Assembly: GCF_001717955.1 (NCBI RefSeq)
Contig: NZ_CP014168.1
Span: 3,999,501 to 4,063,500, forward strand
Direction: 5' to 3'
Length of the DNA: 64,000 bases
From: Sphingomonas panacis
GTDB lineage: Bacteria; Pseudomonadota; Alphaproteobacteria; Sphingomonadales; Sphingomonadaceae
Below, piece by piece: positions 958-13,833 of this stretch. Position 1 is the first letter of the stretch; the number at the start of each line of letters is the position of its first letter. Made by a program: the position numbers and the translations under genes. A model generated the notes under the pieces. It was not told the DNA's origin. It was given only the letters and a program-made list of their open reading frames with translations, and did no database searches.

Positions 958-1032
958 TCCCTGATAGCTCAGCGGTAGAGCTCTCGACTGTTAATCGAGC
1001 GGCCGTAGGTTCGAATCCTACTCAGGGAGCCA
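958..1032 (+). tRNA. tRNA-Asn (anticodon GTT)
   Basis: A complete cloverleaf is visible. The acceptor arms are TCCCTGA and TCAGGGA. The anticodon stem is CTCGA/TCGAG around loop CTGTTAA (anticodon GTT, Asn). The T-arm is GTAGG-TTCGAAT-CCTAC. A G discriminator and an encoded CCA end at 1032. The tRNA is the boundary between host genes and the mobile element. The recombinase gene on the other strand terminates inside it, as expected for an element integrated at the 3' half of the tRNA. Confidence 0.97.
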
Positions 1033-2576
1033 TTTTGGATAGGCTGTTTTTTCGGCCCGGAACCCGACGATCCGTCGTCGGGAATTTCTACCAATATATC
1101 AAAGGGATGCCTGTACTGGACAGTCAGCTCCCGGTGGGCCCAAGAGCAGTTCGATATGAGCAAATTTAAAAGCGTTTTTTGATCGCCATTTGGCCGTTCG
1201 GCGAAGGTGCGATGCGCATTGGTTGCAAGGCCGAGCAGAGCAACTCCGTCGTCCACCAAGGCATCCTCGGCCGAGTAAAGGCGGTCGATATCGTTGAGAC
1301 AGCGGAGCCGCTCCTCGCGCCATGTTGCAGACATCCGATCATGAAACTCAGCCGTGATCGTTCCATCGACCTTATCGATGTACAAAGTGTCGAGTCGGGC
1401 CTGTAGGCGATCGGCTTCGGCTCGGAGCCTCGCGATCGTTTCATCGCGCTCACGTCGCTCATCGCCGTGGGCCTCGAGGATGCCTTGGCGAATCAGGGAC
1501 AGAATCACATCGTCGACGCGCAACTTGCTCAGCGCCTCTACGAAACGCTCAGCGAGCACCTCTTCACGAACATAGGGCTCAGGGCATTTCCCTTTGAACC
1601 TTGAGCAGTGGTAGTAAATGTACTTAGCCTTTTTGATCTCAGCGGTCATCACCGACCCGCAGTGACCGCAGTGGACCAGTCCCGAGAAGCGGAACGAAGT
1701 GACGTTTACGGGGATGTTGGAATAGCTGCGACCATCCAGGATCTCCTGCACATTCTCCCAAGTCTCAAGGGGAACCAGGGCCTCATGGACCCCTTGATAG
1801 AGCCGCCCCAGCCAGTGGAAGGAACCAGTATAAATTCGGTTCCTGAGAATCACGTGGATTGTACTGACGCCAACGGGACGCTGGGTTTTCGGATTTACGA
1901 ATCCGGCATCCCGGGCCATTTTGCTGACATCCTTGAGTGAATATCGCCCCGACTCGAACCATTCATAGAGCCGCGAGACCATTTCTGCGGTCGTGGGATC
2001 GGGCACGATGATTCTCTTTTTTTCGGCCGACACCGTATTTTGATATCCGATGGGCGCGAAGGATGGCCAAAGCCCCTGACGGGCTTTTTCCAGCATTCCC
2101 TTCCGAGTTTCCTCGGAAAGGTTATCAATATAGTTCTTCGCCATAAGGACCTTAATCCCATGCATGAACTTTTCAGAAGATCGAGAGTCGCGTGAGAGAA
2201 TAACATTCTCCTTAACCAGATGTATCTCCACATCCAGATCGTCTATCGTAACCCAATCTCTGATATTGCGATAAAGGCGGTCTGTTTTTTCAACCAGCAC
2301 GACGTCAACAGCAGGGTGTGAGCGGAGAAAGCGAAGCATCTCTTCGAAATTGGTACGTCCCGCTTTTTTTGCTGTTTCAACATCAACAAACTCTTGTGCG
2401 ATCGCGATGCCATGTTGGGCGGCATATTCTTTAAGGACGGCCAACTGCGCGGGAATCGAAAATCCCTCTCGCTCCTGCTCCGGCGTAGAGACACGAGCAT
2501 AAAGAACCGCCCGCTTGCGGCTGCGAGGACGTTCGCTCGCGGTTTTCGCCCGTTTGTTCACTCTTGGCCGCGCCAT
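969..2576 (-). CDS. Large serine recombinase (integrase)
   Basis: Site-specific recombinase that would integrate and excise the element. The ATG at 2576 has AAGGAG 7 bases upstream, giving 535 residues; a longer reading to 2666 lacks that support. The resolvase domain starts with LYARVST (catalytic Ser about residue 30). A recombinase domain follows, then a zinc ribbon (HCGHCG plus two later Cys, about residues 305-335) and a coiled-coil region. The last ~20 residues are encoded by the antisense strand of tRNA-Asn, so the gene crosses the attachment site and its C-terminus would change on excision. Confidence 0.92.
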   Translation of the reverse strand: MARPRVNKRAKTASERPRSRKRAVLYARVSTPEQEREGFSIPAQLAVLKEYAAQHGIAIAQEFVDVETAKKAGRTNFEEMLRFLRSHPAVDVVLVEKTDRLYRNIRDWVTIDDLDVEIHLVKENVILSRDSRSSEKFMHGIKVLMAKNYIDNLSEETRKGMLEKARQGLWPSFAPIGYQNTVSAEKKRIIVPDPTTAEMVSRLYEWFESGRYSLKDVSKMARDAGFVNPKTQRPVGVSTIHVILRNRIYTGSFHWLGRLYQGVHEALVPLETWENVQEILDGRSYSNIPVNVTSFRFSGLVHCGHCGSVMTAEIKKAKYIYYHCSRFKGKCPEPYVREEVLAERFVEALSKLRVDDVILSLIRQGILEAHGDERRERDETIARLRAEADRLQARLDTLYIDKVDGTITAEFHDRMSATWREERLRCLNDIDRLYSAEDALVDDGVALLGLATNAHRTFAERPNGDQKTLLNLLISNCSWAHRELTVQYRHPFDILVEIPDDGSSGSGPKKQPIQNGSLSRIRTYGRSINSRELYR

Positions 2577-2696
2577 TGAATCACTCCTTGAACGTTTCAC
2601 TCGCCCTCTACGCTCCCCTCCTTGGGCAAGCAGGTTCAGACCCGAAAGACGACTCCGGTGGAACATACTGGCAATGAGGTCTTGTGGGAATCCGTC

Positions 2697-4175: not shown

Positions 4176-7148
4176 CTACCTTTCCGGACCTTCTGTTTGT
4201 TCAGGCTGGTGAGTGTGTTCGGGCCCTTGTCGGCCGACATGATCCGCCCCGGACCGGTCACTGCGCTGTGTGTCGCGCGCACCATCACGATCCCGCATCG
4301 ACTGCAGGAACCAATCCAGAACTTCACCGATACGGAAGGCGCTTTCGGCGATCCGTTCGCCGAGCCCCTGTGGCTCACGGCTTCGCCCAAGCTGCTTCTC
4401 GAGCGTGCGGTCACGCCGCTCCTGCCGAATTCGTTCCTGCTCGCTTCTCGCTTGGTCCAACCGATCGGAATGGCGGTCCGCGAGCGCTCGACGTCCGTCA
4501 CGCTCCAGCCGGCCAAGACCCTCGAGCGAGGAGGTCTTTTCACCTGAACGCGACGCCAGCTTCTCGGCGAGCCGCTCAGGGTCTTCGGTCCAAAGCTTTA
4601 CGCCAAATTCGGCCCGCGTTATGGCGGTGTAGTAGTTCTGACCGTTGACCAAACCTGAGTTGACGGGAGCCAAAACGTAGACGCGGGCATAGGTCTTGGA
4701 TTGCGCGGAATAGACTGTCTCCGCGTAGCCGTGGTCCCAGGTTTTGTGCTGAGAAAGATCGACCTCCTGAATCGGCCCGTTACCACGATCCCACCGGATC
4801 GTTGCGATATGCCCGTCCAACTTTTCGACCGTGCCTCGTTCCGCATTCTTTAGGCCGAGTTCCTTGTTGACCAAGCGCCACTGAATGCGGTCACCCTCGG
4901 CGAGATCACGTTCCTCGCGATTGAACACATTGACGTGCTGCGCCTTACCCAGTCTGGGATCCCAGCGGATCATCCGGCCGTTCTCATCGACCAAGCGGAC
5001 AACCTGCCGACCGCTCGCTTCACGGCCAATTCCGACGACGCGATATTCCGTGTTCCGGGCGATTCCGGCGGCGACGAGATCGCGTGCAAACGTCACCACC
5101 TGTCCGCCGGAATAAAAACGGGCGTGGTGCTTCTCCTCATCCGACATACCCGACGGGGTCAGCACGGCGAGCCTAGCATCCTCGGCGGCGAGTGCACTTT
5201 CCGATTTGAGCGTCTCGCGAATTGCGCTGTTCACGATGAGCCGGGTTGCGTTTTCGAGCACAAGAATATTAGTATTGGCCCGATTGATCGGCTTAAGGCG
5301 CGTCCATTCGGCTACCAGTCCCTTTGCCAGGGCCTCCGCCTCCTCGCCGCTTACCACCTTATCCAGCTTGGCCAGGGAAGCCGCATAATCGCCGGCGCGC
5401 GCATGCGTGACCGCATCCTTCATGGCGTCGGTCTTCTGCCGCATGGACTCGGTCAATTGCGCAGTTACGAGGCCAAACTTCTGCATGAGCCAGAATGGCT
5501 TGCCCTGCTCGATAGCACCGGTCTGCCGGTCATCGCCCAACAGGATGACGCGGGCACCGGTAGCGCGGCTGATCTCCAGGACGCGGAGGGCCTGCCGGGT
5601 ACCCAGTTGCCCAGCTTCATCCAATACGAGAACATGTCGGTCGGTGATGCCATATCCACCGCCCGCCAGAAGGCTCGCCACTGTCTTCGATTCGACGCCG
5701 GCCATTTCACCGGCCGTTGCTGTGGCCGACGACGTTGGCGCCAGCGCGATCAGTATGGTTCCCGGCTCGGCCGCCTGGTCTAGCACTTTGATGAGTGTCG
5801 ACTTGCCCGCGCCGCCTACACCGTGAATACCCGTCACCCTGTCACGCGATAGCGCGACCTGCACCAGAGCCTGCTCCTGATGTGGCGTTAGCCCCGCCCG
5901 TTCCAGGACAGTCAGGAGTCTGTCCGCTGATGCGACCGGCCGAGCATCATCGACGGCAAGTGCCAGGTGCTGAGACAAAGCGAGTTCCTGGCGCGCGCTG
6001 CGTCGACTGGTTCGCCCGCGCGTATTGACCTGGTCTCCTGTCTGGTGCGTCGTGGCGAGCAACTTGCGGCTCGCCTCATGCTCCGCAATCAGTGGCCGAA
6101 TATCGACGAGCCGTACCTCTCCGAGGTGGCTCGCGAGGCCCAGTCTGTACATGCGGCCGATGTTGTTGACCGCCTCTCTTGATTCCGCCTGGCGTATCCC
6201 GAACAGGCTTGCCCGTCCGGCGGTTCCCGGATCGACAGGGATCGTGCGCTCGCCTCGCTCGTTCACTTCCGCCATGAGCTTGGCGAGTTCTGCCTCATAC
6301 GGCTTGATGCGCTCAGCCCATTGCGCGCCTAGCTCCTCGAGGTTTGCCTTCACCTTCGGCCCCCTGGTCTCATAAAAGGAGACGCGGCGGGCGGCCTGGC
6401 CAGTCAGCCCATGTTCGTTCGCATGGGCATCGATCTGCTCCGAGCGCTGAGACATGTCCTTGATGAGGCCCTTGGGGACACCCGCCAGTTCAAACAATCC
6501 GCTCCGCGGATCGCCTTCAATTTCCCAGCCGATCTCCCGCACGCGATGCGCGAGCTCGTTGCGATAGACCTGTCCCATGACCATCTGCTCGGCGTACATT
6601 GCGCGCGTCTCGAGACTGGCCATGGGCGAGCCACCTTCGCGGTTGGTGATATTCATCACGACCGTGTGGGTATGAAGATGAGGATCGAGTTCGCGGCTGG
6701 AGTGCTCCGTAAACCGGGCGAAGATCAGGCGTCCCGTAGTCTCATGGACGATCTTGCCATCATCCCGTCGGCGGAGCGTGGCATGCTCCTCCATATATGC
6801 CAGGGTTGCCGTGACAGCCTTTTCATGGGCTTCGATGATCCGCTTGTCGCCCATGACAAGTGCCATGATCGACACCGATTTCGGGGCATTGACGGAGAAG
6901 TCCCAGCCAGGATGGTGCTCGATCTGACCATCGGCTCGGTGCCGCCCTAGTTGCTGGTCGCCGATCTTGCCGGCAAGCAGATCCCTGAATATTTCGGGAT
7001 CGACCTTCTCTCCTTCGAGTCCGAGTTCGGCTGCGATCGCCCCACCCCATTCGGAATGTTCGTCGCCTCCTTTGGTGTAATAATCTCCTACCGTATAATA
7101 GCGGGCGATGTTTTGGGGCGTTCCCTTGAGGCGTCGGGGATGGATCAT
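4176..7148 (-). CDS. traI: MobF-family conjugative relaxase/helicase (TraI/TrwC-like)
   Basis: Nicks oriT, stays attached to the 5' end and unwinds DNA during transfer. Of 990 residues, the N-terminal relaxase domain has paired tyrosines (Y17-Y18 and Y23-Y24) and the HUH metal triad H157/H159/H161 in the DPHLHTHTVV region. The helicase half has Walker A GVGGAGKS (about 445-452), VLVLDEAGQL as Walker B, and UvrD-like C-terminal motifs (VYSAQSKTYARVYV). It looks intact. Its ATG overlaps the coupling-protein stop (ATGA). Gene order from the candidate oriT matches R388 trwA-trwB-trwC. Confidence 0.95.
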   Translation of the reverse strand: MIHPRRLKGTPQNIARYYTVGDYYTKGGDEHSEWGGAIAAELGLEGEKVDPEIFRDLLAGKIGDQQLGRHRADGQIEHHPGWDFSVNAPKSVSIMALVMGDKRIIEAHEKAVTATLAYMEEHATLRRRDDGKIVHETTGRLIFARFTEHSSRELDPHLHTHTVVMNITNREGGSPMASLETRAMYAEQMVMGQVYRNELAHRVREIGWEIEGDPRSGLFELAGVPKGLIKDMSQRSEQIDAHANEHGLTGQAARRVSFYETRGPKVKANLEELGAQWAERIKPYEAELAKLMAEVNERGERTIPVDPGTAGRASLFGIRQAESREAVNNIGRMYRLGLASHLGEVRLVDIRPLIAEHEASRKLLATTHQTGDQVNTRGRTSRRSARQELALSQHLALAVDDARPVASADRLLTVLERAGLTPHQEQALVQVALSRDRVTGIHGVGGAGKSTLIKVLDQAAEPGTILIALAPTSSATATAGEMAGVESKTVASLLAGGGYGITDRHVLVLDEAGQLGTRQALRVLEISRATGARVILLGDDRQTGAIEQGKPFWLMQKFGLVTAQLTESMRQKTDAMKDAVTHARAGDYAASLAKLDKVVSGEEAEALAKGLVAEWTRLKPINRANTNILVLENATRLIVNSAIRETLKSESALAAEDARLAVLTPSGMSDEEKHHARFYSGGQVVTFARDLVAAGIARNTEYRVVGIGREASGRQVVRLVDENGRMIRWDPRLGKAQHVNVFNREERDLAEGDRIQWRLVNKELGLKNAERGTVEKLDGHIATIRWDRGNGPIQEVDLSQHKTWDHGYAETVYSAQSKTYARVYVLAPVNSGLVNGQNYYTAITRAEFGVKLWTEDPERLAEKLASRSGEKTSSLEGLGRLERDGRRALADRHSDRLDQARSEQERIRQERRDRTLEKQLGRSREPQGLGERIAESAFRIGEVLDWFLQSMRDRDGARDTQRSDRSGADHVGRQGPEHTHQPEQTEGPER

Positions 7149-9205
7149 GCCGGCCTCGCTGCTTCCCGAGGTCCGGCACGACGCGCATGGCTTTGAAGGG
7201 GCACCCGCATATCGCCCTGCGCGGGTCCCAACAGAAGATCGTCGATGCCACTCGGTGGTGCCGCATTCTCACCCGTGTCTGCGGTCTTCTCCTGCTGGGT
7301 TTCCTCCCGTTTGTGGCCGGGCTCCTGATCATCGGCGGGGGTTGACTGGACGGTAAAGAGATCAGGCTCCGGTTCCTTCTGCTTTCTGGCCACTGGTTTT
7401 TGGGGCGGCGTTTGCTCGACTGCTTCGCGGGCGTCGGCCTCATCCTTTGCCCGCGCGATGATAGTTTTTCCCTGCGGAAGACGGAGCGGCGGGGTCTGCC
7501 TTTCGATAAAGGCCGGCGCGACGTCGGGCACCTCATTGTAGCTATCCGAAAAGCGAACGACGGGCAGGTTTCGACCGAACCGGAGAAATCCCGATAGGTT
7601 GGGAAGGTTGGTGACCTCCGTGTGCATCACGAGCGGCCGCGTCACTTGAAGACGGGATAGGTTCACGCCGTCACGCATGTCGTTGACGCCGTAGCTCATC
7701 CCCTCATTGGCCTCGATCTGTTCGACCTGGCCGAGGTTCTCAGAAACATGCTTTGCGGTCGGCGTGTCGTTCGCGCGCAGGGCTACCCAGGTCGAGCAGT
7801 AACCGGTGATGGCCGCCGCGTCCTGAATGCCATATGTTGCCTCCAATTGAGGATAGGATTGGAACCCCAGGATACCGCAGCCGCCATACTTTCGGGCCCG
7901 CGCGAGGAAGTCGGAGAGCGATGGCAGCTTCTGGAGAGTCGGCAACTCATCGATGACGCAATAGAGTCGCCGCTCCCGATCCGGCGTAAGGCTCATGATC
8001 GCTGAAATGGCGATGTCGAGCCACACCGTGATCAGCGGCCGCAGGGAGGGCAACTGGTCAGCCTTCACGGTGATGAAGAGCCAGCTGTCATCCTCGTCGT
8101 CCTCTACCCATTTGCGGATCGAGAAGCCGTCCTGTGTATCGTCGAGATAGGCGAAGCTGCGCATGACGGACGCCAGCTCTGCCTGGATACCGGCAGAGGT
8201 TCGCTCGCCTTCGGTCGAAATGAAGGCAGCGGCGTCGGTGCCCGCTGCAAAAGCGGCGAGATCCTTGAGCTTGGAGCGCAGCAGACGATCGAGGAGCACC
8301 GACACCAGTATGTGTCCCTGGAAGGCGAGCTTGCGCATGACCGCAACCAGCGTGCCCCTGGCAGCCTTGGCCCAGAAGGGATCGCCCGCCTTGTCGGGGA
8401 TCGTGGACTCCGCAATCTGATCGTAGTGATAGTCCCGAGGGACATCGACCCAGGGGGACCATTGGCTCGTGCGCCGGTCCAACGGATTCAGAAGTTCGTC
8501 GATTCCTGGGCGGTAGAATTTCTCGACGAAGGTGCCGGCCGTGTCGTAGACGATTGCTCGACGCTTGGCCTTGCGAATCCCCGAAAGCGTCTTGACGATG
8601 AGGTTTGTCTTCCCGGTCCCGGGCGCCCCGCAGATCAGGAAGTGCTCCGGCTCAAAGGCATCGGGAACGGGAACGCCCCCAATTGAAAAGCTCCCCTTCC
8701 TTTGGCGCCAGAGCGCGCGCTTGACCTGACGGATCGTGCCAAATCGGGCACCCCGCAGGTACTCGTTGGAACCGAGCCCCTTCCCCGTACGAGTGAAATA
8801 GAACCAGGCCCAGGCCAGCGCGCCGAGCGCAAAGAAACCCGAGAGGAGCGCGCCGTGAATGAGATAGGTCTCGAAGCTGTGAAGCGTTTTCTTCGCCAGC
8901 GACGACGCCAATAGCCAATCAGCCGACGTCCAGTATTGCTCCCCGGAAGGGGTCTTGAAGAGGACGGGATCATTCGTTCCAGGGGCAGCGTCGGTCTTGA
9001 ACGTCGCCTCGATGAGCTTCATCAGGACGAAGCGCTCATACTCGCTCGACTTCTCCAGCCCGTACCAGATGATGCCCATCACCCAGATCACAAAGCCTGC
9101 GATGAAGGTTTGAAAGAAGACCTGTGTGGTCATCCGAACATTGTGGACGATCGCCTGACCGCCCCTTGTCCATGACCCTAATGTGTCGTTCCGGAAGATG
9201 CTCAT
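7145..9205 (-). CDS. traD: Type IV coupling protein (TraD/TrwB-like)
   Basis: Inner-membrane ATPase that links the relaxosome to the secretion channel. Start ATG at 9205 has GGAG 9 bases upstream; the open frame runs further but without support. The protein has 686 residues, two membrane helices (about 30-50 and 115-137), Walker A GAPGTGKT (193-200), Walker B YCVIDE (about 415-420), and a hydrophilic acidic C-terminal tail after about residue 590 typical of relaxosome-contacting tails. It is followed directly by the relaxase (4-base overlap). Intact. Confidence 0.93.
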   Translation of the reverse strand: MSIFRNDTLGSWTRGGQAIVHNVRMTTQVFFQTFIAGFVIWVMGIIWYGLEKSSEYERFVLMKLIEATFKTDAAPGTNDPVLFKTPSGEQYWTSADWLLASSLAKKTLHSFETYLIHGALLSGFFALGALAWAWFYFTRTGKGLGSNEYLRGARFGTIRQVKRALWRQRKGSFSIGGVPVPDAFEPEHFLICGAPGTGKTNLIVKTLSGIRKAKRRAIVYDTAGTFVEKFYRPGIDELLNPLDRRTSQWSPWVDVPRDYHYDQIAESTIPDKAGDPFWAKAARGTLVAVMRKLAFQGHILVSVLLDRLLRSKLKDLAAFAAGTDAAAFISTEGERTSAGIQAELASVMRSFAYLDDTQDGFSIRKWVEDDEDDSWLFITVKADQLPSLRPLITVWLDIAISAIMSLTPDRERRLYCVIDELPTLQKLPSLSDFLARARKYGGCGILGFQSYPQLEATYGIQDAAAITGYCSTWVALRANDTPTAKHVSENLGQVEQIEANEGMSYGVNDMRDGVNLSRLQVTRPLVMHTEVTNLPNLSGFLRFGRNLPVVRFSDSYNEVPDVAPAFIERQTPPLRLPQGKTIIARAKDEADAREAVEQTPPQKPVARKQKEPEPDLFTVQSTPADDQEPGHKREETQQEKTADTGENAAPPSGIDDLLLGPAQGDMRVPLQSHARRAGPREAARPA

Positions 9206-9353
9206 TGGGGCGCACTCCAGCACCCCGCGCTCACTCGCCCGGCGGGGAACGATAGAGTCGATGGATTGTCTGAAGCGGGACGGGTAGCGACATCGAGATC
9301 CGCATCGTCGGGACGACTGTTGATGACCCAGACGCTGTTTCGAATGCACGCGT

Positions 9354-9653
9354 TCACCGGTCGAACTCCGGCGCAAGCAGCCCCTTTTTCCGGAGCAGTT
9401 CACGCGCATCGGACATGCCTTGGGTCAGCGTGTCGGGTGCCCGATTGCGAAGCGATGCCGCAAGGATCGCGAGGATCTGGATCGTGGTCGCGAGGATCTC
9501 GTCCTGCGACGTATAGACGTAACCGCGATCGGGATCAGCCGCCTGCTCGATCGCAGGACGGACCAGGTCTGAAACGGATATGCCGGCGGCATAGGCACGA
9601 CGCGAAAGGCGCTCGTGCAAGGCATCGTCGATGCGCAGATTAAGCTTTGCCAA
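9354..9653 (-). CDS. Ribbon-helix-helix accessory transfer protein (TrwA-like)
   Basis: The 99-residue protein begins MAKLNLRIDDALHERLSRRA, a classic RHH/CopG DNA-binding strand followed by two helices. The second half (ILATTIQILAILAASLR) is hydrophobic and probably a tetramerisation helix. It is the first gene leftward from the palindromic non-coding region, in the place of trwA in R388. TrwA-type proteins bind oriT next to the nick, stimulate the relaxase and repress the operon. The two palindromes at 9743-9758 and 9841-9856 are likely binding sites. Function is by position and fold. Confidence 0.82.
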   Translation of the reverse strand: MAKLNLRIDDALHERLSRRAYAAGISVSDLVRPAIEQAADPDRGYVYTSQDEILATTIQILAILAASLRNRAPDTLTQGMSDARELLRKKGLLAPEFDR

Positions 9654-10043
9654 GCGAAGGCTCCGAGTAGGAGCTTCGCGAGGACATGAGGAGCAAGTGC
9701 TTTATAACTGGAAGATCGGCGGATTCACAAGCTTTTTAGTCTGTCCTACCTGTAGGACGTGCAAGAATGGTGGAATTGCGCCATTCGAGTGACACCGAAG
9801 GCAAAGTGGTGATACGCGTGGGACAGCGAAACGCGAAATTGTCCCACCTGTAGGACACGTATATCATATTGATTTAGAGCGATAATCGCTTCGCAGCACC
9901 CGTGCGTACGGTGCATTACAAACGCCTCTGCGCGTGCGTCCACTAAGCGCAGCGACTGCGTCGCTGCGAATGCCTCGTCCGGGCACGGGCGGGGCATCCC
10001 CGCAAGGGGATCGGCAACCTCGTTTCATATGCCTGTGCCTCAC
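9654..10043. other. Candidate origin of transfer (oriT), palindrome-rich non-coding region
   Basis: No convincing gene occupies this stretch. It contains a perfect palindrome GTCCTAC-CT-GTAGGAC (9743-9758) and a second, one-mismatch copy GTCCCAC-CT-GTAGGAC 98 bp away (9841-9856). There is a 9-bp hairpin CGCAGCGAC-TGC-GTCGCTGCG (9948-9968) and a hairpin ATCCCC-GCAA-GGGGAT (9996-10011). It lies directly upstream of the RHH, coupling protein and relaxase genes. Gene content diverges in style on its two sides, as expected around oriT. The nick site is not identified. Confidence 0.65.
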
Positions 10044-10086: not shown

Positions 10087-10308
10087 TCAGTATTCGTCGA
10101 TCAGCCCGCAAGGCTCGGTGTAGATGATCCGGTCGATGATGGCCATCGGCAGCGCGCCGTAGTCGCCCTCGTCGATGGCGATGTAGCCCCCTTCGTCATC
10201 CGTAATGACATGCTGGTCGAAGTAGCTGTTGAACGCCCGGCGTTGCGCTGTGCCGAGCGCTACTTGGTAGGATTCGTTTTGGGCGACGCTGCTCGGAATG
10301 ATGTGCAT
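10087..10308 (-). CDS. Small acidic protein of unknown function, first gene of the leading side
   Basis: Not recognised. The 73-residue acidic protein has a DEGGYIAIDEGDYGALPMAIIDRIIY segment. AGGAG lies 6 bases before the ATG. The gene is a single transcription unit: its own terminator follows at 10044-10078, and a cloverleaf element sits 59 bp upstream (10367-10493). As the first gene beyond the candidate oriT in the direction of entry it would be among the first expressed in a recipient. Small acidic leading-region proteins are often DNA mimics or inhibitors, but that is only a possibility here. Confidence 0.75.
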   Translation of the reverse strand: MHIIPSSVAQNESYQVALGTAQRRAFNSYFDQHVITDDEGGYIAIDEGDYGALPMAIIDRIIYTEPCGLIDEY

Positions 10309-10366
10309 GATAAGCTCCTGTCTGTCTTGAATGACAGGAGCGGCGCGTCGGGCGGCCGAGACCGGG

Positions 10367-10493
10367 TCAAGGATCGCGAAGCGACCGCGAAGCGGCGGTG
10401 GGGGTCACGATTTTCTTCGGCGGCCACGGACACCGAAGGAGAAGCGCCGCGCTTGATCCGCCGAAGAAAATGGTGGGGCCCCGCCGTCCTTGA
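10367..10493 (+). repeat. Cloverleaf-like structured element, copy 1
   Basis: Every arm can be paired on the plus strand. P1 is TCAAGGA (10367-10373) with TCCTTGA (10487-10493). P2 hairpin is TCGC-GAA-GCGA (10374-10384). P3 hairpin is CCGC-GAA-GCGG (10385-10395). P4 is CGGTGGGG (10396-10403) with CCCCGCCG (10479-10486). P5 is ATTTTCTTCGGCGG (10410-10423) with CCGCCGAAGAAAAT (10458-10471), closed by a 34-nt variable loop. P1, P2, P3 and P4 abut without spacers. It lies 59 bp upstream of the 73-aa gene start. A further hairpin GCGGACC-GAAT-GGTCCGC follows at 10578-10595. Confidence 0.85.
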
Positions 10494-10632
10494 TGCGGTC
10501 TCGGACGTCCGACATAATGGGAAGTCTGTGAGAGATGTTTCCTCTCGTCGGGAGACCCCGGCAAGGCGTAGCGGCATGCGGACCGAATGGTCCGCTTGGG
10601 CCGCGAGCGAGCCGGGACTTGCTGCCAGCGGT

Positions 10633-10665
10633 AAAAGAAAGGGACCGAGCGCGAGGCCCGGTCCC
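10633..10665 (-). terminator. Rho-independent terminator after the 212-aa gene
   Basis: On the minus strand GGGACCG, an 11-nt loop and CGGTCCC are followed by TTTCTTTT. It begins 8 bases beyond the stop of the 10674-11312 gene. Confidence 0.8.
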
Positions 10666-10673
10666 GGGTGCCG

Positions 10674-11312
10674 TCAGGGATGACGGCCGCAGGGGCAGCA
10701 ATCTTCGTCGATGCCCGTGAGGGAGCAGTAACCCGGGCCGAAGTCGGGATAGAGTTCGTCCTCGTCCTCGGTATAGCCGTGCTCGCTGGCGATTATGACC
10801 GCGTAGCGCCGGATCTGGGGATCGAGCCTGTCGATATAGCCCGCGCATATCCCGCTGAAGCGGCAGACGTAGAGTTCGTAGGACGCGCAAGAGGTCGCCC
10901 GCATCTCGGCGTCAGCGATCCGCTCCGCGTCCGCCCGGAATTGTTGAAGGGCGAGGAATAGCGGCGTCTCGGCGGCGCGAGTTTCGACGGCCAGTGGGAC
11001 AGGTTGGCGCTGGACCATGACGCGATAGGCTGGGCTATCGTCAGCGCGTGCCCGTAATATAGTGTAGCCGTTTGATCGGGAGACCTGCCGGGCGATCCGA
11101 CAGATTGTCTGGTGAAGGCGGTCATACTCGGCTCTGAAGAAATCTCGTTCAGTGTGGGTCTGTGCAGTGCTGATGAGGTGTCCGCAAAGGTCGGCGAGGC
11201 CAATGTATTTCTCAAGGAGACGAATGAGTCGGAAGCCTGTGGCTTGCGCGCGCCAGTAGTCGGGTTCGTGCGACGCGACGATGCGGGTGAGGTAGGATTT
11301 CGTGTAGGTCAT
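10674..11312 (-). CDS. Protein of unknown function (212 aa), leading region
   Basis: Not recognised. The ATG at 11312 has GGAGG 7 bases upstream, preferred over longer readings. The N-terminal half is helical and basic. The C-terminal part is Cys- and acid-rich, ending with TEDEDELYPDFGPGYCSLTGIDEDCCPCGRHP; the CCPC cluster suggests metal binding. It is a stand-alone unit with a cloverleaf element 76 bp upstream (11388-11482) and a terminator downstream. No family is claimed. Confidence 0.75.
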   Translation of the reverse strand: MTYTKSYLTRIVASHEPDYWRAQATGFRLIRLLEKYIGLADLCGHLISTAQTHTERDFFRAEYDRLHQTICRIARQVSRSNGYTILRARADDSPAYRVMVQRQPVPLAVETRAAETPLFLALQQFRADAERIADAEMRATSCASYELYVCRFSGICAGYIDRLDPQIRRYAVIIASEHGYTEDEDELYPDFGPGYCSLTGIDEDCCPCGRHP

Positions 11313-11387
11313 GAGAGCCTCCATCATGAAGCGCTCCCCATCTCCATCAGATGAGGATGGAAACATCAGGACGCGGTGTTGAGGGAG

Positions 11388-11482
11388 TCAGGGACGGCGA
11401 AGCCGCCGCGTAGCGGGCAGTGGGGGAACCGATTTTGTTGTCGCGGAGCGGCCGCAAAATTGGGGGGACCACTGATCCTTGA
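11388..11482 (+). repeat. Cloverleaf-like structured element, copy 4 (short variant)
   Basis: Same arm order as copy 1. P1 is TCAGGGA with TCCTTGA (one G-T wobble, plus an extra G-C). P2 is CGGC-GAA-GCCG. P3 is CCGC-GTA-GCGG. P4 is CAGTGG (11418-11423) with CCACTG (11469-11474), a fully compensated version of the copy 1 stem. P5 is reduced to ATTTTG/CAAAAT with an inner GCGG/CCGC. It lies 76 bp upstream of the 212-aa gene. A second hairpin with TGCTTTGC (11553-11560) and GCAAAGCA (11591-11598) arms follows in the 11483-11801 non-coding stretch. Confidence 0.8.
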
Positions 11483-11801
11483 CGGCCGATGGACACCCAG
11501 CGTCATGCTTTGGCGATGAAGCCCCGTCTGATACCGAGATGTGAAAGCGCACTGCTTTGCCCCCGATCCCCGCAGGGGTCGGGGTTAACAGCAAAGCACC
11601 GCATGATTGAGCCGAAGGTGCTAACTCGCAGGAGATTTTATGACGGACAAGTATCCGTCGAGGAATGGCTGGCGTGCGGTTCTTACCGGAGGAGGTTTCT
11701 CTTCGCCGGCGAACGCCGGCCATCAATCTCAAGGGCTTGCAAGGAAGGCCCGGTTGAGCGATGTCATGCATTGGCGGGCAGGCCATCGCAAGGAAGATGA
11801 C

Positions 11802-12041
11802 ATGCCTAAGATGAGTGAAAGAGAACGACTCGCTGACCTCGAAGCACGCCAGCGTAAAGCAGCGGAGGAAGTGGAGAACGCACGCCGCGCATTGCGCGGT
11901 AAATATGCCGCTATCGTAAGCGATCTACCGGTCGAAGGGTTGACCGAACGCGAATTCAAGGACGTTCTGGTCGGCGCGATCCGTGTGGGCGGAGCCCCCT
12001 CTATTGCGGCGTTAAAGGTGCTGCCCGCAGTCAAATCCTGA
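11802..12041 (+). CDS. Small coiled-coil protein, plus strand
   Basis: The 79-residue protein starts MPKMSERERLADLEARQRKA and is almost entirely charged helix for the first 45 residues, predicting a coiled coil, followed by LTEREFKDVLVGAIR. The ATG at 11802 is preceded by AAGGAAG; an open frame extends upstream but has no ribosome site there. Architecture resembles small TraC/TraD-type accessory proteins of alphaproteobacterial transfer regions, though I cannot assign it. It is one of very few plus-strand genes here, so it would not be read from the incoming plus strand. Confidence 0.7.
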   Translation: MPKMSERERLADLEARQRKAAEEVENARRALRGKYAAIVSDLPVEGLTEREFKDVLVGAIRVGGAPSIAALKVLPAVKS

Positions 12042-12188
12042 TCGATCAATTCGCCCGTAGGGCGGCCCTGCGACGAGCACGGCGGAGCCGCGCGCAGGAG
12101 GCCGGCACCGCAGGTGTCGCATCGCTGCCCGACGGACCAGGCGCGAAAGCGTCTGGCTCCTGAGGGCGGCGATTAGTGAAGCGAAGAG

Positions 12189-12233
12189 AAAAAAAGCGGG
12201 ACCGACCCGGGATGTCTCCCGGACCAGTCCCGC
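12189..12233 (-). terminator. Rho-independent terminator after the first DUF2493 gene
   Basis: On the minus strand GCGGGAC and GTCCCGC flank an inner hairpin and are followed by seven T. It starts 12 bases past the stop at 12245. The rest of 12042-12188 holds no gene I can support. Confidence 0.8.
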
Positions 12234-12244
12234 CCTTCATCGGA

Positions 12245-13231
12245 TCAGGAGGCCCAATGCGCTGGCCCGCCATAGAGTGAGAGTAGCGTAGGCTCGATGC
12301 CGGTGGATCGTAGCACCCGGACCAGTTGTGCCTGCACCCCGCTCCCTTCGGCGACAATCCCATCCACCGGTTGCAGTCTGGCAATCTGATCGTTGCGGAC
12401 AAACCCCGCACGCTTCGATCCCCAGCGCGCGACGTCCAGTCCCAGCCTGACCAGTGGAGTCTTGGTCCGTGCTGCCCATGCTTCGGCAATCGCATCCCCT
12501 CCTCTGTCCTGTGCGGTCGTGAGGAGAACCATAGTCGGTCGGATCGCCTTCATCTCGTCCAGCGCTTTCCAGATTGGCCTGAAATCACTCCACTGCCTGC
12601 CGCCTGAGAAAGCCACCAGCGGTCCTGCCGGGTGGTGCTGACCAATGCGCTTCTGGCGGCGTGCGGCAAGGTAGTCGGTCCCTTGGATGACCGCGTGCGT
12701 GCGCTTCGAGGATACCAGCGTCGCCTTCGGTGCCGACCACGGACGTCCGGTCTCGGCGTGAAACACCTCGGTTGCGTGATCCCGCATGCATCCGAGCGCG
12801 TCGGCTCCCTCGTCGAGGAGTTCCAGCAGGTCATGAACCCGTTCCAGTTCGACGCTGTGGATTTCGCTTCCATCCGCTGTTCCGAGCAGGTCCTGCACGT
12901 CTCGCGTCGCCTTGTCGGCTTGCGCGGCCCACTGGTCGGCGACCCGATGGAAGCTGAAGATGACGCCCCATGCGATACGTTCGGCTGCACTTTCGAGGCG
13001 CGTGTCGCGGAGAACATCGAAGACGGTCGTGATGATGAGTTCGACAGCGAGCTGGACCTCGGTCGCATCAGGCATGTCGGTGGTCAGTTCCTCCTCACCA
13101 CGCCCGACCCGAACGCCGTCCAGATCGGAAGCGAAGGCAGTGGCGAAATTGTCATTCGCCTGTCCTGTCTCCTCCGCAATGAGAGCGGCGATGTCCTTGA
13201 AATCCCGAATGCTGCGCTTGAACTGAGCCAT
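12245..13231 (-). CDS. DUF2493 (YspA/cpYpsA-related SLOG) domain protein, paralogue 1
   Basis: A protein of 328 residues. Start at the ATG at 13231, with AAGGAGG 6 bases upstream. The C-terminal 130 residues form a DUF2493 Rossmann-like domain: GPLVAFSGGRQWSD, then GGDAIAEAWA and an EGSGVQAQLVRVLR segment. DUF2493 belongs to the SLOG superfamily, often nucleotide-ligand sensors or processing enzymes in conflict systems. The N-terminal helical part has no assignment. It is closely related in layout to the 14267-15319 gene. A cloverleaf element lies 60 bp upstream. Confidence 0.85.
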   Translation of the reverse strand: MAQFKRSIRDFKDIAALIAEETGQANDNFATAFASDLDGVRVGRGEEELTTDMPDATEVQLAVELIITTVFDVLRDTRLESAAERIAWGVIFSFHRVADQWAAQADKATRDVQDLLGTADGSEIHSVELERVHDLLELLDEGADALGCMRDHATEVFHAETGRPWSAPKATLVSSKRTHAVIQGTDYLAARRQKRIGQHHPAGPLVAFSGGRQWSDFRPIWKALDEMKAIRPTMVLLTTAQDRGGDAIAEAWAARTKTPLVRLGLDVARWGSKRAGFVRNDQIARLQPVDGIVAEGSGVQAQLVRVLRSTGIEPTLLSLYGGPAHWAS

Positions 13232-13290
13232 GATAACCTCCTTTGAATTGAAAGAGGCTTCCCATTCGGCACGGGCTTCGAGCGACGGGG

Positions 13291-13421
13291 TCAAGGATCG
13301 GGCAAAGCCCGACCGCGCAGCGGCGGTGGGGGAGACGATTTTCTTTGGCGGCCAGTGTGGTGACGAAGAAGTGCCCGCGCCCGACCCGCCAAAGAAAATG
13401 GTGGGGCCCCGCCGTCCTTGA
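13291..13421 (+). repeat. Cloverleaf-like structured element, copy 2
   Basis: P1 is TCAAGGA/TCCTTGA (13291-13297, 13415-13421). P2 is TCGGGC-AAA-GCCCGA (13298-13312). P3 is CCGC-GCA-GCGG (13313-13323). P4 is CGGTGGGG/CCCCGCCG (13324-13331, 13407-13414). P5 is ATTTTCTTTGGCGG/CCGCCAAAGAAAAT, with a C-G to T-A compensated pair relative to copy 1. It is 60 bp upstream of the first DUF2493 gene. An 11-bp hairpin CGAATCAGGGG/CCCCTGATTCG (13477-13505) follows. Confidence 0.85.
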
Positions 13422-13535
13422 GGCCGGCGTGGTCCCGTGCCACGCTAAGAAGACTTGAGAGAGAGGAGGAGGCTTGCGAATCAGGGGTTCGATGCCCCTG
13501 ATTCGTAATAGGTGCCGCTAGGCGCAACCTCGGAG

Positions 13536-13671
13536 TCAGGGAGCGCGAGCCTGTCCGCGACCGCGCAGCGTCGGTGGGGGTCACGATTTTCTATGGCGGG
13601 CACCAAAGCTGAAATTAAAAGGCTAACGCCTGCTCCGCCGAAGAAAATGGTGGGACCCCCGCCGTCCTTGA
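13536..13671 (+). repeat. Cloverleaf-like structured element, copy 3 (tandem to copy 2)
   Basis: P1 is TCAGGGA/TCCTTGA with a G-T wobble. P3 is CCGC-GCA-GCGT. P4 is CGGTGGGGGT/ACCCCCGCCG, ten pairs with one T-G. P5 is ATTTTCTATGGCGG/CCGCCGAAGAAAAT with one mismatch and one T-G. P2 is the least certain arm (CGCG/CGCG). An 11-bp hairpin GCCATTCGGGG/CCCCGAATGGC (13726-13756) follows, as in copy 2, so the repeated unit is about 220 bp. There is no gene between copies 2 and 3, and no gene in 13672-13833. Confidence 0.8.
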
Positions 13672-13833
13672 GGCTGGCGATGACACCGTGCCATCCTGGG
13701 AAGAGTTGAGAGAATGAAAAAGGCTGCCATTCGGGGGCGCGAAGTCCCCGAATGGCATCGAACAACGCGAGCCTTTGTTCGTGTTGTTCGTCCTGCGGCC
13801 GCGTTATGGAACGGTAGGTGGCTTATGCTAGAC

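Follow-up and report, generated by a model that had tools for sequence, protein, structure and literature searches.

The window, a 64,000-nt stretch of Sphingomonas panacis (NCBI RefSeq assembly GCF_001717955.1, contig NZ_CP014168.1, positions 3,999,501 to 4,063,500 of the forward strand), contains an integrative element with a serine integrase gene at tRNA-Asn and genes for a MobF relaxase, a TraD/TrwB coupling protein and a ribbon-helix-helix (RHH) protein, all leftward. Beyond the RHH gene lies a non-coding gap with a candidate origin of transfer (oriT), followed by the leading genes, of which those adjoining the element studied here are leftward as well. This gene order is that of R388. 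The leading region carries four copies of a cloverleaf-like element with −35 and −10 hexamers, three of them enclosed by an additional outer stem (P0). The evidence throughout consists of sequence and folding. The copies are listed below, with bit scores from a covariance model that was itself built partly from copies 1–3.

10364-10496, plus strand: copy 1, cloverleaf (102.6 bits)
10347..10518, plus strand: copy 1 with outer stem; P0 5′ arm 10347-10363, P0 3′ arm 10497-10513; −35 TTGATG 10490-10495, −10 CATAAT 10513-10518, spacer 17
11385-11485, plus strand: copy 2, cloverleaf (96.7 bits)
11370..11509, plus strand: copy 2 with outer stem; P0 5′ arm from 11370, P0 3′ arm 11486-11504; −35 TTGACG 11479-11484, −10 CATGCT 11504-11509, spacer 19
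13288-13424, plus strand: copy 3, cloverleaf (98.4 bits)
13268..13446, plus strand: copy 3 with outer stem; P0 5′ arm from 13268, P0 3′ arm 13425-13441; −35 TTGAGG 13418-13423, −10 CACGCT 13441-13446, spacer 17
13533-13674, plus strand: copy 4 (tandem), cloverleaf (73.5 bits)
13533..13697, plus strand: copy 4 with promoter boxes; −35 TTGAGG 13668-13673, −10 CATCCT 13692-13697

A preliminary description of this DNA had placed four copies here, and the covariance model recovered all of them, on the plus strand. A core sequence pattern had three matches in the window (copy 2 was unmatched), versus none in 100 shuffles. Folded as DNA, the plus strand of copies 1–3 formed a cloverleaf closed by P1, with P2 and P3 as small hairpins and P4 and P5 as the long arm. 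The folding z-scores of copies 1–4 were −7.1, −2.6, −4.4 and −3.2 on the plus strand and weaker for each copy on the minus strand (−5.7, −1.3, −3.1 and −2.1). In copies 1–3 the enclosing stem P0 gave way to a fork at the −10: the pairing probability was 0.93 at position −12 and 0.00 at −11 in copy 1, 0.88 and 0.05 in copy 2 (with 0.41 at −10), and 0.93 and 0.04 in copy 3. In copy 4, P0 pairing was absent, with a probability of 0.0 across −17 to −6. This copy keeps the long arm, the −35 and the −10; it is the only window copy without a gene directly downstream and also the only one without the fork, and is probably decayed. The arm order proposed as common to all copies (P1, P2, P3, P4/P5) held, except that the minimum-energy fold of copy 4 retained only the long arm and did not form P1 and P2 in the proposed way. 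The spacings to leftward gene starts (59, 76 and 60 bp) had been given correctly, with the copy labels confused; they belong to the copies at 10367, 11388 and 13291, and it is the copy at 13536, not copy 3, that is in tandem and has no gene to itself. The unit had also been taken to be bounded by P1, which overlooked its main feature, the outer stem and the −35/−10 elements.

The four window copies are part of a large family in alphaproteobacteria. With copy 1 as the query, blastn matched 210 plasmid records at E values up to 0.01, 31 of them over at least 80% of its length; the commonest genera were Agrobacterium (56), Sinorhizobium (45), Rhizobium (27) and Sphingobium (18). The core pattern matched 41 genome-contig stretches. 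A covariance model (R1) built from 21 members on the plus strand matched 106/298 genomes from 55/96 genera in the host's family, and 10/289 genomes in its class. In the host's phylum 20/398 genomes matched, all 20 inside the class, although four of these (G843, G893, G926 and G928) rest on weak matches of 36–49 bits. Rfam at gathering score found only a tRNA in the window; at a relaxed threshold, MIR7510 appeared at 31.3 and 27.4 bits, far below its threshold of 93, and was discarded. The host genome holds seven copies in three places. The seventh (L192:10011-10106, at about 2.406 Mb of the host chromosome) lies elsewhere on the chromosome, at a second place where a DUF736-type gene is close by and a group II intron matched at L192:3962-4045; this place is probably another mobile element.

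Model searches yielded 228 hits in two sets, 131 and 97. The first set was used in full, and 49 hits of the second were kept once near-duplicates had been left out by hand. These 180 rows underlie the 125 loci and the strand count given below, and comprise 157 distinct elements. TTGA stood at the expected place in 141 of the 157, and dereplication at 75% identity of the right flank left 66, among which only copy 3 represents the window.

Covariation was assessed in an alignment fitted to R1 (A3; 131 distinct rows, 91 of 145 sources used). Two-sided changes occurred in 25/34 base pairs and 94.6% of cells were paired. None of 500 shuffles reached any of five measures, and controls with the structure slid along the alignment paired in 37–54% of cells. 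In a MAFFT alignment of 21 members, with a consensus fold adjusted by hand, 18/34 pairs were compensated. The covariation, whose absence would have told against the preliminary description, is strong and extends well beyond the four copies. The wobble pairs had a strand sense: G·T and A·C cells on the plus strand numbered 290 and 7. The largest contribution came from the first T of TTGA (84 G·T among 129 paired cells), where the 3′ arm retains TTGA and the 5′ arm varies. With flanks included, the plus strand was more stable as DNA in 66/66 elements, by a mean of 10.6 kcal/mol. The loop of P3 had three bases in 84/131 rows and was of the GNA type in 67 of those, with other loops in 64/131; GNA loops are unusually stable in DNA. 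Folding predictions and covariation together support folding on the transferred strand.

This strand preference bears on a reading in which the element is a structured minus-strand leader RNA of the leading genes, transcribed from an ordinary promoter, that regulates either translation or termination. The minus strand does fold too. However, the greater stability of the plus strand as DNA and a wobble ratio of the wrong sense for a minus-strand RNA led us to reject this reading, and the Rfam result, with no family besides the tRNA, likewise speaks against it. Taken with the flank result below, we regard a leader RNA as very unlikely, although the accessibility result below is in its favour.

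Most elements were enclosed by P0, the sequence of which varies between elements while its two arms match. On the 3′ side the layout was TTGA on the 3′ arm of P1 (the −35), then P0 as the spacer, ending at −12, then an unpaired right flank with the −10. The −35 was paired within P1 in 99.1% of A3 cells. Among the 66 dereplicated elements, the best −10 in the right flank, 14–20 nt after TTGA, had A at its second position in 66/66 and T at its sixth in 65/66 (NAnnnT in 65/66). The spacings were 15–20, mostly 17–19. The bases after the −10 were G-rich (47%, 71% and 74% G). A conventional duplex promoter of the leftward gene that used the same P1 would need its −10 at the mirror place on the left flank, 14–20 nt from TTGA, but NAnnnT occurred there in at most 4/66 elements (conventional promoters further off were not searched). 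This lack of a −10 is also unfavourable to a leader RNA.

Partition-function folding gave a mean pairing of 0.65–0.89 across −28 to −12, with 0.71 at −12 and 0.14 at −11; across −11 to −7, the −10 was unpaired (0.14–0.24). Pairing of the right with the left flank averaged 0.76 over −26 to −12 and 0.18 over −11 to −6 in native elements. When left flanks were swapped between elements the first value dropped to 0.35, and the background over −11 to −6 was 0.16. If the helix end was located by structure alone, blind to the motif, 65% of elements had C as the last paired base, 57% had A directly after it, and 49% had T four bases beyond that A position. In promoter opening, the pair at −12 stays closed and the non-template A at −11 is the first base flipped out; the end of the fold therefore coincides with the fork of an open complex. 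The covariance model did not include P0, the −10 or the start codon, which are independent of it.

The AAAW run of P5 began 22–24 nt before TTGA in 55/66 elements, and the 3′ strand is continuous through P5, P4, P1 and P0. If P4 and P1 stack, the run would stand at the usual place of an UP element. A promoter within the P4/P5 long arm, with AAAAT as the −10, was also considered and rejected; no fitting −35 was seen by eye, and the spacing of the AAAW run suits an upstream contact better.

Read on the flank opposite the −10, the fork points to the leftward leading genes. The predicted transcription starts and the genes downstream of them in the window are as follows:

10335, minus strand: predicted transcription start of copy 1, placed from the partner of −12; 27 nt before start codon 10308
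10087..10308, minus strand: leading gene of copy 1, conserved 73-aa (amino acid) small protein, function unassigned
11358, minus strand: predicted transcription start of copy 2, placed from the fold; 46 nt before start codon 11312
10674..11312, minus strand: leading gene of copy 2, start taken at 11312
13256, minus strand: predicted transcription start of copy 3, placed from the fold; 25 nt before start codon 13231
12245..13231, minus strand: leading gene of copy 3, start taken at 13231, YAcAr/SLOG domain

Downstream of the predicted +1, 58 of the 59 elements with a clear partner for −12 had a leftward start codon and its Shine-Dalgarno sequence, at a median of 28 nt (quartiles 25–34); frame length was not required in this count, and in locus L048 (at 12003) the frame after the start codon is very short. 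A Shine-Dalgarno sequence with a start is common by chance, so the count of 58/59 is weaker support than the tight distance. With a frame of at least 50 aa required, the score was 47/66 leftward versus 16/66 rightward. On annotated plasmids, the element lay 51–79 nt from an annotated leftward gene in 9/10 cases and 286 nt in the other, as measured from gene tables and model-hit ends (blastn match ends for L217 and L218).

In the window, a small hairpin at 10314-10341 overlaps the Shine-Dalgarno sequence and is cut by the predicted start; it is also found in the left flanks of other elements. Because the predicted start cuts this hairpin, an RNA begun upstream of that start would bury its ribosome-binding site. 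The predicted accessibility of the Shine-Dalgarno sequence was 0.24 in transcripts from −12 and 0.42 in transcripts from +1, with 0.34 when the upstream 12 nt were shuffled, and native sequences fell below their own shuffles in 43/55. It is suggestive only that read-through transcripts from further upstream may thus be kept silent. The predicted hiding of the Shine-Dalgarno sequence in longer transcripts also speaks for a regulatory leader RNA.

With regard to the products, the 73-aa protein matched 46 database proteins at E values up to 0.001; the window's own protein is probably one of these. The longer frame of the copy 2 gene (10674-11366) had no Pfam match. The longer frame of the copy 3 gene (12245-13294) matched PF10686 with 65.1 bits and corresponds to the DUF2493-type gene of related plasmids. 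In loci L120, L133, L170, L178, L187, L202 and L211 the first frame after the element begins, by eye, with M..(Q/H)I(E/Q/N)ELRAEL, an unnamed family of leading genes. A sub-threshold match to the suhB/mmgR small RNAs on the minus strand at 10627-10703 (27.4 bits, threshold 41) is probably a terminator hairpin.

The position of the element relative to the transfer genes was constant wherever a MobF or Ti-type TraA gene was found. The remaining features of the integrative element are:

969..2666, minus strand: serine integrase; the frame overlaps tRNA-Asn (958-1032)
4176..7148, minus strand: MobF (TrwC/TraI) relaxase
7145..9409, minus strand: TraD/TrwB coupling protein
9354..9653, minus strand: RHH gene, in the trwA position
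9892..10009: candidate oriT, conserved non-coding DNA that separates the RHH gene from the first leading gene

The candidate oriT had 76–83% identity across 110–195 nt in six of seven related loci, and a 29-nt exact match in the seventh. Comparison with these seven loci identified no nic site within it. The F-like string GCGTGGG at 9816 was considered as a nic site and dropped, since only one of the seven loci carries it, twice and in unlike surroundings.

In all 54 loci having MobF (the window and its near relatives included), MobF lay to the left of the element and on the opposite strand; the check set out in the preliminary description, whether copies lie near relaxase genes with one polarity, was thus passed. 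Identity of MobF to that of the window ranged from 26 to 76% in the other loci. Loci with a Ti-type TraA had the same arrangement (4/4), and in 41/41 multi-copy loci all copies were on one strand. A searched mobility gene was present in 72/125 loci, and a mobility or leading-type gene in 113/125, within the stretch examined. The polarity of the transferred strand is here taken from the R388- and F-like gene order. As the leading genes lie beyond oriT from the relaxase, the folded plus strand is expected to enter first; in 54/54 MobF loci the element thus lies to the leading side, and the strand that carries it is the one predicted to be transferred. A dispersed repeat or a protein-binding hairpin without a role in transcription would fit the multiple copies and their palindromic nature, but would hardly be fixed in strand and side relative to MobF or flanked by a −35 and −10 conserved outside the repeat core, and we consider it extremely improbable. 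A priming site (ssi/sso) for RNA polymerase or primase, with gene expression incidental, would be compatible with a promoter; repetition in the leading region agrees with it, and Frpo is described in PMC7690428, in the passages on that element, as doing both. One priming site would suffice, however, whereas the copies precede successive genes, each at a set distance from the start codon, which makes priming as the primary role highly unlikely.

The most direct competitor of a folded promoter is the same hexamers used in duplex DNA, that is, a rightward promoter flanked by a large inverted repeat, producing a short antisense RNA between the leading genes, with the fold secondary. TTGA-N17-CATAAT is a plausible rightward promoter in duplex form, and the 16/66 elements with a rightward Shine-Dalgarno sequence and a frame of at least 50 aa also speak for it. 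Such a promoter leaves unexplained why the left flank is complementary through −12 and then stops, why the leftward start lies at so tight a distance from the fork, and why the wobbles favour the plus strand; we judge it unlikely. Several further observations weigh against a forked promoter, together with the plausibility of the duplex form. The wobble ratio favours the strand of the model and leans to the plus strand because the model was built on that strand. TTGA was lacking in 16/157 distinct elements, which were dropped. Spacers of 15 (8/66) and 19 (13/66) are not ideal, and the −10 hexamers are weak except at A2 and T6. A strict fork, with −12 or −13 paired and −11 to −7 all unpaired, was found in only 41/66 elements, the helix end determined from structure alone fell at the expected 16–20 nt past the −35 hexamer in just 35/66, and 7/66 had no clear partner for −12, leaving the 59 used above. 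A Shine-Dalgarno sequence and start within about 170 nt occurred on the rightward side in 41/66, compared with 64/66 leftward. Finally, in 53/125 loci the stretch examined contained neither a relaxase nor a coupling gene of the searched types, and 12/125 had neither a mobility gene nor a leading-type gene there.

Weighing these points, we conclude with a probability of roughly 0.78 that the element is a forked single-strand promoter, functionally Frpo-like, of unrelated sequence and different architecture. On entering the recipient, the transferred strand would fold into a ready-opened promoter in which P1 supplies the −35 (TTGA), P0 the paired spacer ending at −12, and the right flank the unpaired −10. 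With the 3′ flank in the role of non-template strand, RNA polymerase would use the 5′ flank as its template and continue into the leading gene while the DNA is still single-stranded. P5, with its AAAW run, may stack on P4 and P1 and give a UP-type contact, and P2 and P3 may be side hairpins that lock the junction. After second-strand synthesis, the same −35/−10 would point away from the gene, and expression would therefore be confined to the time just after entry. The single-strand promoter suggested in the preliminary description is thereby strengthened, the −35/−10 being placed so that only the folded plus strand is predicted to read the leading gene. With moderate confidence we further propose that the promoter opens itself and senses whether its own DNA is single- or double-stranded, driving the establishment genes on entry and shutting them off by its reversal once the second strand is made, with one family serving plasmids and integrative elements in several alphaproteobacterial families, with MobF and Ti-type relaxases. 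The design would be physically simple, with the fold supplying −35, spacer and fork and the two flanks supplying −10 and template, and its start sites are predicted to the base. It could explain why leading genes are silent in carriers yet active in cells newly entered. Establishment genes adjoining relaxases could be sought with the model.

RNA polymerase is known to act on folded single strands at the sso of rolling-circle plasmids and at the complementary-strand origin of M13; those make primers and, unlike the element as interpreted here, do not place a gene on the template side. The promoters of the phage N4 virion polymerase are small DNA hairpins with three-base loops that work as single-strand promoters. 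The GNA triloop of P3 resembles them, but they use a special phage polymerase and have no −35/−10. Among plasmid elements, the sso is also named in the part of PMC7690428 that deals with Frpo.

The closest known counterparts are Frpo1 and Frpo2 (ssi) of F, described in the relevant passages of PMC9849209, PMC11541004 and PMC7690428 as folded single-strand promoters in the leading region from which the transferred strand is read into leading genes, with an upstream A/T-rich element as well. The preliminary description had drawn this analogy, which stands for the way of working and fails in detail. The −10 and −35 boxes of Frpo are described as double-stranded (PMC7690428, in its account of Frpo), whereas here the −10 is unpaired at the fork and the free 5′ flank would serve as template; the cloverleaf cap is mostly 86–160 nt long, compared with a 328-bp region for Frpo. 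R1 had no match up to E = 10 in 20 kb of the F leading region (48–68 kb), and a blastn comparison of the Frpo2 region with the family loci gave no significant similarity (best E = 0.26 among the matches listed; Frpo1 was not blasted). Since neither sequence similarity nor a double-stranded −10 was found, the element was not classed as Frpo. A scan for forks in the R388 leading region gave a best score of −19.0, inside the range of six shuffles (−15.7 to −20.4). Such negatives mean little, because among 40 family elements put through the scan at least a quarter had a score of zero. In F, the scan gave one hit beyond the shuffles (energy −30.4 versus −14.6 to −19.5 in six shuffles), at L213:8447-8826 (about 56.4–56.8 kb), on the transferred strand upstream of an antirestriction gene. 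It is a long hairpin with TTGCAT and TAAGAT in its 3′ arm and a 3 × 3 loop at the −10; because its −35/−10 lie within that one hairpin, it was set aside as a fork and is Frpo-like in form, possibly a further promoter of that kind.

Samuel et al. 2024 (PMC11541004) describe Frpo and Frpo-like candidates upstream of leading-region frames and propose them for early expression, a placement and role similar to those suggested here. According to its main text, those candidates were found by similarity to five known Frpo/ssi or by a −35/−10/UP consensus in chosen islands, unlike the family reported here, and the words rhizob-, Agrobacterium and alphaproteobacter- are absent from that main text. A literature search covering open-licence papers returned no report of such elements in alphaproteobacteria. 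The Frpo-type principle itself is already known from F; the family with the proposed forked promoter would be a variant of it in alphaproteobacteria, and the outer stem P0 is new here. Single-strand promoters, so far established in F and related plasmids, would thereby extend to sphingomonads and rhizobia, in a family of unrelated sequence.

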